From: Leptolyngbya sp. CCY15150
GTDB lineage: Bacteria; Cyanobacteriota; Cyanobacteriia; RECH01
Direction: 5' to 3'
Length of the DNA stretch: 56,085 nt
Assembly (NCBI RefSeq): GCF_016888135.1
Contig: NZ_JACSWB010000289.1
Location: forward strand, 1-56,085
This document shows positions 49,764 to 54,662 of the stretch, piece after piece. Numbering within the stretch: the stretch's first letter is position 1; each line of letters begins with the position of its first letter. The translations under genes and the position numbers were made by a program. Below the pieces are notes generated by a model. The model made no database searches. It worked only from the letters and a program-made list of their open reading frames with translations, and was not told where the DNA came from.

Positions 49764-51002
49764 TTGCCCTTGGACGCTTCCACCCTACTGCTGATTGCTG
49801 CACCTCCCATTGTGGGCGGCATCATTGGCTATTTCACCAATGATCTAGCCATCAAAATGCTATTTCGTCCCTATCGTCCCCTCTACATCGCCGGACGACG
49901 ATTGCCCTTTACCCCAGGCTTGATTCCCAGCAACCAGGAACGGCTGGCCAAGCGAATCGCCGACACGATTATGGGGTCGCTGCTGACCCCCGCCGAGCTG
50001 CAAAACCTAGCGCGGCGCTTATTGCAAACCGAGCGGATGCAGTCGGCCATTCTCTGGCTGCTGCGGCTGGCCCTAGAACAACTCCAGGCCCGAGATGATC
50101 GGGGTACTAGCAAAATTGTCGCCAATATCCTGCGGGATTTATTGGGGCGATCGCTCCTGCGCTTGGTGCGGGTCTGGGCTAGGCAGGAAGACTTTTTAGC
50201 CCCGCAGCTCAACCAGATTTTTGACCAAGTCTTGCTAGAGTTTCAGCTCTCCGAGGTGCAGGCAGAGCAACTGTCCGACTGGTTGCTGAACGTGGTGCTG
50301 CCCCCGGATGTCTTGCGAGTGACCCTGATCGACTTTCTCACCGATCGCAACATTCAGGTGATCGACGAAGGCTTTCGCGAAAAAACCAGCGGCACCTACT
50401 GGGTGGTCGCCAACCTCTTTGGTCTACGCAACACCCTCACCCGCCTACGCACCTACTGCCTTGATGAAAAAGAGGCCACCAATACCCGGATCACCGAGCT
50501 CATTCAGGCCTTGGGCATCAAAGGGCGGTTGACCGAGTGGCTGCAAAACCTCTCCATGCAAAACCTGCCGGTTTCCACCGTCCGCCGACTGCGCAGCACC
50601 ATGCGCGAGACCGTGCGCGACTATGTGAGCAACCGAGGTGCCGATCTTTTGGAAGGATTGGGCGAATCGGTGGATTGGGACAGCACCGCCGACCTCTTGC
50701 TCAATCGCCTGCAAAGCTCAGATGCCGTCTATACATCCCTAGAACCCGTCAGTAAAGAACTGGCGCTGGTGCTAGAGCAATATCTAGAACGCGATTTAGA
50801 AAACATTGTGGCCCAGGCTATTCCCATTCTCGACATCGACCAAGTGATCATCGACCGGGTGCGGGCCACATCTCCCCGAGACTTGGAACTGGCCATTCAA
50901 GGGATTGTCCGCAATGAACTGCAAGCGATCGTCAACCTAGGCGGCATCCTCGGTTTCACCATCGGTCTCTTCCAAGCGGTGATCCTCTATTTCCGCGGAT
51001 AG
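49764..51002 (+). CDS. DUF445 family membrane-associated protein
   Basis: A 412-residue protein with a membrane helix at each end ([20 protein letters not shown] at the start and [18 protein letters not shown] at the end) and a long helical middle part. [19 protein letters not shown] is the DUF445 start motif, and [21 protein letters not shown] follows. Function unknown. No ATG is in frame between the preceding stop at 49734 and the conserved part, so translation starts at a TTG, at 49764 or 49770. Confidence 0.85.
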
Positions 51003-51036
51003 TTAATCCTCGTGATTCGTGCAAGGGCCAGGCAAA

Positions 51037-51260
51037 TTGACATCCTCTCTACTCAATCGCTAGACGATAGGAGTGGAGATTTCTTGGATTACTCCAAAAA
51101 CTTCCTGCTTCTCTGGCTCATGCCTAGATACCCAAGCAAGCCTGGATCCCCCTGGTCAGAACGCCTCCACAGGCTGTTTGTTTTACGTCCACTTGGTGCC
51201 CCCAAGCAGGACGGATCTAAAGAGTTGTGTTTGGCTTTGCTCTATACAGGTTGTCAGTGT
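51037..51260 (-). mobile_element. Orphan right end of a TnpB-type (IS200/IS605, IS1341-like) element
   Basis: Read on the minus strand, the segment ends with a hairpin and then GAGGATGTCAA (51047-51037 on the complement). The hairpin arms are TCTCCACTC (51071-51079) and GAGTAGAGA (51046-51054), a 9-bp stem with one wobble and a 16-base loop. This hairpin plus GGATGTCAA, preceded by GCAGGAAGTTTTTGGAGTAA (51088-51107), is what I know from right ends of cyanobacterial tnpB elements, which also encode the guide RNA. A short stretch upstream (QVDVKQTACGGVLTR on the minus strand, about 51158-51202) looks like a translated tail. No intact tnpB or tnpA is present. The left limit is not defined; 51260 is a guess. 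Confidence 0.5.
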
Positions 51261-51531
51261 CTTAACCGTTCTCTGAGCCGCCTACTGGATGAGCCATCCG
51301 TATTGTTTCTGCGCTTTACCGCTAAAGTAATGGTATCAGTCAGTTGTAGATTTCGGCGCTATTCCTTCTCTCACGATCCCATGGTTCAGGGATGCACCTC
51401 AATCTACGCGTCCTACACCACCAGCCTAGTCAAAGATTATGGCTGGTGTACTGGTCGGCTTTTGATAAGAGATAGACTGGGGCGTTGCCCTTAGGGCTTG
51501 AGTCGTCCGTTGCTGCATCGAGGATGCCGAT
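51261..51531. other. Remainder of the spacer before ycf66
   Basis: No gene supported. It is covered by a 160-codon plus frame (51012-51494) that I treat as a non-coding passage through the mobile-element relic. Confidence 0.4.
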
Positions 51532-52893
51532 ATGTTTGCGTATGGTTTAGCGATACTGGTGGGTTTGGGAAGCCTGACATTTTACATGGCAGCATTTTTC
51601 ATCCCAGAAGTGCATCGCCGTCAAGATATAGCTTGGAGCGGCGTCGGCATGTTCTATGCCTTGGCGCTGTGGATTTATGGCGATCGCCTCCAGGGTGGCC
51701 TCTTGGTGGGACAAACGGCCAGTGTGGTGCTGCTGCTCTGGTTGGGATGGCAACTGCTGATCCTGCGCCGACAAACCACCCCCCTTGAGCAACAAACCGA
51801 CTTGCCAGAAGGCGCTACCGTGATTCCAGGCTTGGAGCGCCAACCTGCGGTATCTGCTGGTCAGCCGACTCGCCAGACCAGCAAACAGTCAAGTAACCAA
51901 TCCAGCAAACAGTCGAGTAAGCAGTCCACTCCAAAGGCGGCACCACCGGCTCAAGCAGCCCCAGCCAGTCCAGCCGCGCCGATTGCCGCCCCGTCTGCCA
52001 CCGATACTCCTGCCCCTGCATTTCCCCAGGTTGACTCGGTTACCCCCGCCGCCGTCGAGTCTGCTGCGGTACCCACGGCCACAGAAGCGATCGCTCCTCC
52101 ACCTCCAACTCAAACAGAAGCAAGCAGCCCCACACCATCAGCAGCTAGCCCATCTTCCCCAACGGCAACCACCCCATCTTCTCCGTTAGAAGCAACTCCA
52201 TCAGAAGCAACCCCATCAGAAGCAACTCCATCAAACCCTATCCAAGCAGCCGCTACCCCATCAGAACCGACTTCATCAAAACCTATCCAGGCTCCCAGAC
52301 CAGAAACATCCAACCAGCCATCCCCCAGATCTGAACAACCTGCAAGGGCGGCTCAGACCGAGTCCCGACCAACGGCATCTCCAGCAGCAGCGTCCCAGCC
52401 GCGATCGCCCCAGCCCAACCAACGCCCACCTCAGCGATCCAGCTCACCTCCTCCATCCTCTCGTCCCCCTAGTCCAGCCAGACAACCTCAGCCAGCACCA
52501 CCTCAAGCCGCCACCACCCAACCCGACCCGTCCCCTACCAAGACGGTCAAAACTCCTCAGCCAACGCCTCAAGCAACTCCTCAGCCCAAAACACCTGCAC
52601 CCCAGCCCAAAAAAGCGACAGGCCCCATGGGTCGTCTGAGAAACTTATTTCAGCGTTCCGCACCAGCAAAACCATCTGCCAAACCGTCTACCCCCGTTGG
52701 GGAGATTGAAGAACTGGAAGAAGGTTGGGATGATTGGAATGAAGAAGCACCGCCCTCACCCACCAGCGATCGCCGTGATCCATCCCGTACGCCCACAGGC
52801 GATCGCCCGCCTCAGGTCTTAAAAGCTGAACTGATTTCCCAGAAAGATGAAGCTTCCTTACCTTCACCCTACGAGGAAGAGTCCAGTATTTGA
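51532..52893 (+). CDS. ycf66: Ycf66 family protein with long disordered tail
   Basis: A 453-residue protein. Residues 1-90 are the Ycf66 domain: three hydrophobic helices (YGLAILVGLGSLTFYMAAFF, IAWSGVGMFYALALWIYG, VVLLLWLGWQLLILRR) as in algal plastid Ycf66. From about residue 95 to 365 runs a Pro/Ser/Ala/Thr/Gln-rich stretch with short repeats (QSSKQSSKQS, and SEATPSEATPSEATPSNP near residues 221-240) that must be disordered. A short conserved basic-acidic part follows (GRLRNLFQRSAPAKP, EELEEGWDDWNEE). Plastid forms lack the long insert. Function is unknown; a thylakoid role is inferred from its distribution. Confidence 0.9.
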   Translation: MFAYGLAILVGLGSLTFYMAAFFIPEVHRRQDIAWSGVGMFYALALWIYGDRLQGGLLVGQTASVVLLLWLGWQLLILRRQTTPLEQQTDLPEGATVIPGLERQPAVSAGQPTRQTSKQSSNQSSKQSSKQSTPKAAPPAQAAPASPAAPIAAPSATDTPAPAFPQVDSVTPAAVESAAVPTATEAIAPPPPTQTEASSPTPSAASPSSPTATTPSSPLEATPSEATPSEATPSNPIQAAATPSEPTSSKPIQAPRPETSNQPSPRSEQPARAAQTESRPTASPAAASQPRSPQPNQRPPQRSSSPPPSSRPPSPARQPQPAPPQAATTQPDPSPTKTVKTPQPTPQATPQPKTPAPQPKKATGPMGRLRNLFQRSAPAKPSAKPSTPVGEIEELEEGWDDWNEEAPPSPTSDRRDPSRTPTGDRPPQVLKAELISQKDEASLPSPYEEESSI

Positions 52894-53702: not shown

Positions 53703-54107
53703 ATGACGAATTCGTCTCGACCAAGACTCTATACTCGAAGAACCAAATGGTATAACTTAGCTTACCTAGTATTAATTACTCTCATATGGAGCACGGTGGT
53801 CATCACGCCAAGTCCCTCTGTCATAGGAGTTGTTTTAGGCAGCATCATACCCGTGACGGGAGTCGCAGCCATCGTTGGAATCATCTTAGATAAAGCCTGG
53901 GCAAAGTGGGCAGCGATCGCCGCCTATGGCTTCTTGAGTTTCATCCTCATTGCAGGATTTGTGTCTTCCTTCCTACAACCTAGTCTAGCCAGTACCGTTG
54001 GCGACGATGGGCTCAGAGCTTCTAGAATCATGATGCTTCTCATCCTCGCTGTCACGCTTCTAGGCATGGGTTCACTCATGAAGAAACGACCTGCTGCCCC
54101 GGTCTGA
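53703..54107 (+). CDS. Small membrane protein, first of a tandem paralog pair
   Basis: A 134-residue protein with four likely membrane helices (about residues 19-37, 45-63, 66-90 and 107-125). The start MTNSSRPRLYTRRTKWYNLAYL is shared with the next gene, as are VGIILDKAWAKWAAIAAYGF and the end LMKKRPAAP. I recognise no named family. Both genes keep reading frame and start, so both are probably used. The ATG at 53703 is in a spacing from the 34-bp repeat (93 bases) different from that of copy two (27 bases), so part of the leader has been lost or gained. Confidence 0.72.
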   Translation: MTNSSRPRLYTRRTKWYNLAYLVLITLIWSTVVITPSPSVIGVVLGSIIPVTGVAAIVGIILDKAWAKWAAIAAYGFLSFILIAGFVSSFLQPSLASTVGDDGLRASRIMMLLILAVTLLGMGSLMKKRPAAPV

Positions 54108-54230: not shown

Positions 54231-54662
54231 ATGACAAATTCTTCTCAGCCAAAGCTCTATACTCGCACGACGAAATGGTACAACCTAGCTTATCTGGCAT
54301 TCATTGCTTTTACATCGAGCACGCTGGTGATCACAACTGTTTTGGGCACCTATGAAGACACAGACGTCTCTGGTGTAGAAGTCATTCGTTCTGGTGCCAT
54401 GGCAGTGGTGGGAATTGCCGCGATCGTTGGCATTAGCTTAGATAAAACCTGGTCAAGATGGGCAGCGATCGCCACCTATGGCTGCTTCATCTTTGTGCTG
54501 ATTGAGGGATTCGTAAATTCTTTGCTGGCAGACTCTGCTCTGACGATGGCTCTTGGCTCAAGTGCGCTCATAGCTTTTAGAGGCTTGCGAATAGTCATGA
54601 TCATCCCAGCACTGGTGGGCGTTGGCTTGCTGATGGACAAACGATCTGCTGACCCTACCTAA
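54231..54662 (+). CDS. Small membrane protein, second of a tandem paralog pair
   Basis: A 143-residue membrane protein with the same four-helix plan as its neighbour. It shares LYTRTTKWYNLAYL, VVGIAAIVGISLDKTW and GLLMDKRSADP with the first copy, and adds about nine residues in the first outer loop (TYEDTDVSGVEVIRSG). Coding identity is well below that of the 34-bp repeat upstream, so either the genes diverged faster or the repeat is constrained. Function unknown. Confidence 0.72.
   Translation: MTNSSQPKLYTRTTKWYNLAYLAFIAFTSSTLVITTVLGTYEDTDVSGVEVIRSGAMAVVGIAAIVGISLDKTWSRWAAIATYGCFIFVLIEGFVNSLLADSALTMALGSSALIAFRGLRIVMIIPALVGVGLLMDKRSADPT

Follow-up and report, generated by a model that had tools for sequence, protein, structure and literature searches.

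TnpB guide RNAs have been described as coming from the end of an element that carries tnpB, and a DNA stretch that resembles such an end but has no nuclease gene raises the question of whether it is a dead relic or encodes an RNA that is used in trans. Positions 51003-51260 of the window (the whole stretch of Leptolyngbya sp. CCY15150 DNA analysed, 56,085 nucleotides) had been read in an initial annotation as an orphan TnpB right end with a guide-RNA-like hairpin on the minus strand. The comparative evidence presented here favours the use of a putative guide RNA in trans.

The locus carries a complete element without tnpB

A search of the own genome (G000) with 51003-51531 returned a second copy, G000:C278:127038-127465, which is 95% identical, matches exactly 51037-51467 and has flanks that differ from those of the window copy. 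The two copies differ by 20 substitutions and one 3-base gap, and both insertion sites are uninterrupted in the congeners G001 and G002. With slashes marking the junctions, the window site reads ..CTATCTCTAT/TTTGCCTGGCCC.. when empty in the congeners and ..CTATCTCTTAT/CAAAAGCC...GTCAA/TTTGCCTGGCCC.. when filled, the window copy having one extra T before TAT compared with the congeners. The C278 site, which lies between putative ndhI and ndhG (names from translation), reads ..CCCAACTAT/CAGCCG.. when empty (AATTAT in G001) and ..CCCAACTAT/CAAAAGCC...GTCAA/CAGCCG.. when filled. From the comparison of empty and filled sites, the element is 428 bp long and sits 3' of (C/T)TAT without target duplication; the empty sites in the two congeners thus fix the ends of the element, the motif and the position of the guide (51036 downward). 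By the same site comparison, the insertion is recent and the element is young.

49764-51002, plus strand: DUF445 gene, convergent neighbour outside the element (PF04286, 211 bits)
51017-51036, minus strand: predicted 20-nt guide TTTGCCTGGCCCTTGCACGA, identical (20/20 nt) to the empty site beside CTAT in both congeners
51037-51464, minus strand: complete tnpB-less IS200/IS605-type element, 428 bp, CAAAAGCC...GTCAA (second copy and uninterrupted sites in G001 and G002)
51046-51078, minus strand: right-end hairpin before GGATGTCAA (sequence)
51419-51448, minus strand: left-end hairpin CACCAGCC...GGCTGGTG (sequence; the own tnpB elements have a similar left-end hairpin)
51465-51467, minus strand: target motif TAT, directly left of the element, which also ends the left side of the empty sites (empty and filled sites)

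The minus-strand hairpins and the terminal GGATGTCAA lie where the initial annotation had placed them, with the end at 51037, and the proposed tnpB-type right end is borne out by the last 75 nt (51037-51111), which match two own-genome tnpB right ends at 85% and 82%. These matches, at the ends of contigs C239 and C240, have E values of 2.1e-17 and 4.4e-10 in the own-genome search, so the likeness is more than chance. As had also been claimed, there is no nuclease gene within the element, and its arrangement corresponds to that of a TnpB guide RNA. The description as an orphan right end does not hold, because the element has both of its ends, two congeners lack the insertion and the interior appears to be an RNA gene conserved in other cyanobacteria; likewise, the feature does not stop at 51260, since the 95% copy and the congener empty sites extend the whole element over 51037-51464. 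The guide start at 51036 fits both the right end and the empty-site match next to CTAT, while the guide itself (51036-51017) falls beyond the DUF445 stop codon, in the spacer, and not, as supposed, inside the 3' end of that gene.

The element has a hairpin at each end and conserved terminal bases, as well as insertion 3' of a short fixed motif without duplication (two empty sites, each in two congeners), and a related autonomous element with a Y1 tnpA exists outside the own genome (L193, described below). Judged from these sequence comparisons, it is a real, miniature, protein-free, non-autonomous element of the IS200/IS605 type, and its putative guide-RNA gene is self-contained. A plain repeat search of 50600-51700 found no repeats, and the window element had no match among phages and plasmids. 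A further right-end-like relic is present in the own genome (L084, G000:C174:261087-261158), with no left end seen beside it. Elsewhere in the window, the plus strand encodes a Ycf66-like N-terminus (PF07444) with a long tail rich in proline, alanine and serine behind it (51532-52893), and two neighbouring paralogous frames, 49% identical and with no Pfam family (53703-54107 and 54231-54662).

The plus-strand frame is very unlikely to be a gene

A 160-codon frame on the plus strand (51012-51494) overlaps the element, and the initial annotation had named its conservation as a protein as an observation that would speak against a guide RNA. The frame is also open in the second own copy, and one relative (L032) matches it weakly over residues 9-160 in a single frame (30%, E 8e-7). 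However, the 20 substitutions between the own copies fall 8/6/6 over the codon positions, with 1 synonymous and 19 not, in most relatives the match does not stay in one frame, Pfam and NCBIfam gave no family for it, and the insertion that bears it is absent from the congeners. We therefore rejected a protein-coding plus frame on the basis of the substitution pattern and the frame changes in relatives, and give the idea practically no credence.

The interior of the element resembles a conserved RNA

The interior has a common layout: a TANNAT box, two 5' hairpins and then a core that is shared with tnpB-borne guide RNAs.

51017-51325, minus strand: predicted transcript, guide-RNA scaffold plus 20-nt guide (from the comparisons)
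51311-51323, minus strand: 5' hairpin P1 AGCGGTAAAGCGC, the weakest helix (family comparison)
51287-51299, minus strand: hairpin P2 GGATGGCTCATCC (family comparison)
51186-51213, minus strand: hairpin P3 CGTCCTGCTTGGGGGCACCAAGTGGACG, the most covarying helix (covariation)
51104-51173, minus strand: core domain closed by P4 (51170-51173 with 51104-51107, CCTG/CAGG), with P5 and P6 inside (covariation)
51081-51100, minus strand: hairpin P7 (own-copy comparison)

The core, from P3 to GCAGGAA, was examined in alignment A3, which holds 24 tnpB-less and 4 tnpB-borne sequences, a set of 28 from 32 sequences inspected. L032 and T_C207 fell out because the end pattern did not recognise them, and two were removed manually: L039, which a contig end truncates, and L040, whose sequence before the core is odd; L126, L139, L141 and identical copies were not included. 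For a structure predicted from this same alignment, 13 of the 19 pairs have changes on both sides, 93.2% of the cells are paired against 72.1% in shuffled alignments, and the covariation score is 0.566 against 0.181 (0/500 shuffles; slid controls 0.059-0.177). One P3 pair, for example, is GC in 11, UA in 10 and CG in 6 sequences. Within these alignments, the both-sides changes in the core are hard to explain other than by a conserved fold, and the scaffold has its sequence and structure in common with tnpB-borne scaffolds. In P7, the pair 51099/51082 is T-A in the window copy and C-G in the second own copy, both sides having changed.

The 5' helices were compared in alignment A2, with 12 of 13 sequences (L047 was left out for its extra hairpin and the visibly misaligned L034 was kept). 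P1, P2 and P3 together scored 0.137 against 0.064 in shuffled alignments (0/500), and both sides had changed in 6 pairs, where shuffling gave 2.1 (2/500). P3 is the strongest of the three, the covariation of P1 and P2 is modest, and P1 has no both-sides change. The extra hairpins P1 and P2 are absent from the tnpB elements examined. The fold of the single 51003-51260 sequence is unremarkable (z -1.76, equalled by 9 of 200 shuffles); the evidence for structure lies in the family alignments. Rfam 15 had no match over the window at gathering scores, and none for 51000-51500 at E up to 10. Taken as a comparative result, the interior is an RNA gene rather than decayed tnpB.

A putative promoter box precedes the RNA

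51330-51335, minus strand: putative -10 box TACCAT, 4/6 to TATAAT (family comparison)

A hexamer with at least 4/6 identity to TATAAT is located 4-15 nt upstream of P1 in 19 of 20 sequences, with P1 assigned by eye. The mean score of these 20 sequences is 4.70 of 6, compared with a mean of 3.32 and a highest value of 3.9 in single-base shuffles (0/2000). The test left out L126, L128 and L135 as well as L122, L123, L134, L139 and L141, the last five coming from G258 and G217, where no clear -10 box was apparent by inspection; these five constitute a distinct subgroup with the same core and a different 5' region. In the window copy the box has only 4/6 identity and a scan for a complete sigma-70 promoter found none, both of which we count against the guide-RNA reading.

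Related tnpB-less elements occur across cyanobacteria

At the DNA level, 10 of 388 genomes of the class gave matches, and the loci fetched comprise 10 distinct places without a TnpB frame and 4 tnpB-borne ones (in G149 and G302), which have only their right part in common with the element. Scanning one genome per species with an exact pattern gave 23 stretches, all cyanobacterial, 18 of them in Baaleninema simplex PCC 7105. We also built a covariance model, R1, that covers 165 positions, from P1 up to where the core begins, and was trained on tnpB-less members. R1 matches 18 of the 388 genomes at 31 or more places, copy numbers being lower bounds because at most 7 candidates per genome were scored. 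G292 has at least five identical-scoring copies, two of which were read and are the same element with different flanks, and G258 has at least four. With a home-made TnpB profile built from 19 frames, 29 of the 30 fetched R1 loci lack a TnpB frame within ~1.5 kb, or less where a contig ends, a preference that is partly built in by the training set; the exception, L136, is a tnpB-borne element that R1 still matches. An omega RNA is encoded in or next to its tnpB gene, which is not the case for the element studied here.

The family is largest in B. simplex (G388), where 18 full-length copies (433-480 bp) with left end, TATAAT box and P1 occupy 17 distinct sites, two copies sharing flanks, and five more members are shortened or have no recognised left end. 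Among these 23 members there are 21 different guides, and the copies with a recognised left end are preceded by CTAT or CTAC (CTAY). L152 and L163, at different places on contig C4, have the same 20-nt right flank and hence the same predicted guide. L047 and L059 carry an extra segment of ~45 bp in the 5' RNA domain with the hairpin GGTGGCGAACTCGGTTCGCCACC, whose core is opposite in orientation to that in other copies (e.g. L051), as if flipped. A further 18 matches in this genome cover the right 74-80 bp alone (86-89% identity); all seven that were fetched (L165-L171) have TnpB frames, some of them broken (L165, L168). The two congeners of the window strain hold derivatives of the element: L021 in G001, of ~170 bp, keeps the left end, -10 box, P1 and right end, and L022 in G002, of ~65 bp, has its left end fused to its right end.

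Possible TnpB and transposase partners

The Pfam TnpB domain occurs four times in the own genome. The left halves of tnpB elements on C208 and C209 and the right halves on C239 and C240 share a 96-bp overlap whichever way they are paired, and these contigs end inside the elements, from which we infer that the assembly split two tnpB elements whose ends resemble those of the small one. The left-end matches, which precede the tnpB genes on C209 and C208, are weak (E 0.058 and 0.76), and this is counted against the guide-RNA reading. For guided_TnpB the own TnpB reaches 248 bits (cut-off 100). It can be aligned with solved TnpB chains and in this alignment retains the D/E/D-type motifs, which we take to be the catalytic residues. 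With a protein gene absent and a guide-RNA-like gene kept, the element probably borrows the TnpB of its larger relatives in the same genome for its own protection or spread.

TnpB (PF07282) was found in 18 of 18 R1-positive and 31 of 56 R1-negative genomes (Fisher p 3.1e-4), the negatives being a non-random sample made up of G001-G003 and 53 genomes from the top of the list. The test left out G058 (R1-negative, DNA-search-positive, 13 TnpB matches) and G388 and G392 (outside the R1 scan), and it counted G389, G390 and G391 as G160, G045 and G343; in the TnpB scan, 1 of 41 positive genomes fell below the Pfam cut-off. This co-occurrence could reflect general IS load. The B. simplex genome has 117 TnpB-domain matches.

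The own genome yielded two Y1 genes, both of the REP-associated type (80.9 and 79.8 bits; cut-off 80), and no usual TnpA, a finding that also counts against the guide-RNA reading; it is therefore doubtful that the element is mobile there at present. A REP-associated-type tyrosine transposase gene lies just beyond the window (G000:C289:68842-69180). The B. simplex element matches four Acaryochloris plasmids in part. In pREC2 of Acaryochloris marina (L193), a complete tnpA+tnpB element has a matching left end (91.7% over 46-48 bp) and the same core, which places the parent in IS200/IS605. L192 has a TnpB fragment only; L194 gave no TnpB-profile match and only its right end was seen.

A dead element, a decoy or a guide used in trans

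The element could be an ordinary dead MITE, i.e. an internally deleted IS605 element that was moved in trans by TnpA and whose RNA-like parts are inherited and unused. The tiny core-less derivatives in the congeners (L021, about 170 bp; L022, about 65 bp), the missing usual TnpA in the own genome and the weak -10 box of the window copy are what such an element would lead one to expect, but the strong covariation lies in the inner core, away from the ends, the place of the -10 box is kept in 19 of 20 sequences, P7 has changed on both sides between two copies of one genome, and P1 and P2 replace the tnpB coding sequence instead of decaying from it. We regard this explanation as unlikely, while still giving it some weight. 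Less probable again, and in our estimate quite improbable, is that the RNA is made and captured by TnpB but has a role other than guiding cleavage, either diluting TnpB-omega-RNA complexes as a decoy or regulating TnpB or neighbouring genes. The extra 5' hairpins and the many B. simplex copies with different flanks would suit such a role, whereas the guide side is intact (right-end hairpin, GTCAA, flank and CTAY motif) and the empty site is a perfect match.

Considering all of this, it is probable that the element is a mobile, trans-acting TnpB guide-RNA (omega-RNA) gene that exploits TnpB made by other elements. The predicted guide is directly 3' of the right end and matches the empty site beside the target motif. 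A putative promoter inside the element would drive a transcript from near P1 through the right end into the flank, TnpB of a full-length relative would bind the scaffold in trans, and the flank would serve as the guide. The complex would then cut copies of the locus that lack the element (CTAT plus guide match), and repair from an element-bearing sister copy would restore the element there; a Y1 transposase may also act in trans, for movement.

For a wider proposal our confidence is evenly divided. It holds that cyanobacteria have a family of TnpB guide-RNA genes dedicated to acting in trans. They would be mobile and protein-free, and would bring a promoter of their own and a specialised 5' domain in the RNA that would free the guide RNA from having to be cut out of tnpB mRNA. 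Such genes would be parasites of TnpB's drive, each insertion would be a new guide, and one TnpB could be programmed by many elements, like a dispersed CRISPR array. To our knowledge, a stand-alone TnpB scaffold that bears a promoter and a 5' domain of its own and is spread over cyanobacteria would be new: no tnpB-less omega-RNA element was found by title or abstract in the literature searched, a search outside which most subscription papers lie. With a widespread guide-RNA-only element, nuclease and guide would be genetically separate as they are in CRISPR systems, and selfish elements would be seen to exploit the gene drive of another element; TnpB programming in trans becomes testable, and natural compact stand-alone scaffolds are on offer.

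Comparison with known systems

Guide RNAs apart from their nuclease, and MITEs, are known as classes. Weinberg in 2009 and Altae-Tran in 2021 are said to have reported copies of the HEARO / IscB omega RNA without the ORF. Such copies resemble our case in that the guide RNA of a transposon nuclease is present without the nuclease gene, but the nuclease family is another one, the element described here has no Rfam match, and IscB guides are at the 5' end of the RNA (in the part of PMC9755519 consulted).

For ISDra2, the sections of PMC8612924 consulted describe how the right-end guide RNA directs TnpB to the motif plus flank, and how cutting of the empty donor leads to the element being copied back. 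According to the same sections, IS200/IS605 elements with tnpB (ISDra2) share with the small element the right end as scaffold and the flank as guide, 3' of a short motif and without duplication. The tnpA+tnpB element of A. marina pREC2 shares its ends and core. In contrast to IS200/IS605 elements with tnpB, the small element has neither tnpA nor tnpB but a putative promoter of its own, and the P1-P2 domain, not tnpB coding sequence, is upstream of its core.

In plasmids TnpB acts as a gene drive, for which the cutting of copies that lack the element has been proposed (excerpts of PMC11870625); the terms 'in trans', 'non-autonomous' and 'MITE' are absent from the main text of that paper. There, by those excerpts, TnpB is inside the element, whereas here it would come from elsewhere. 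Finally, bacterial IS-derived MITEs are likewise short, non-coding, moved in trans and present in several near-identical copies, but the interior of the small element appears to be a conserved structured RNA gene and not leftover sequence.
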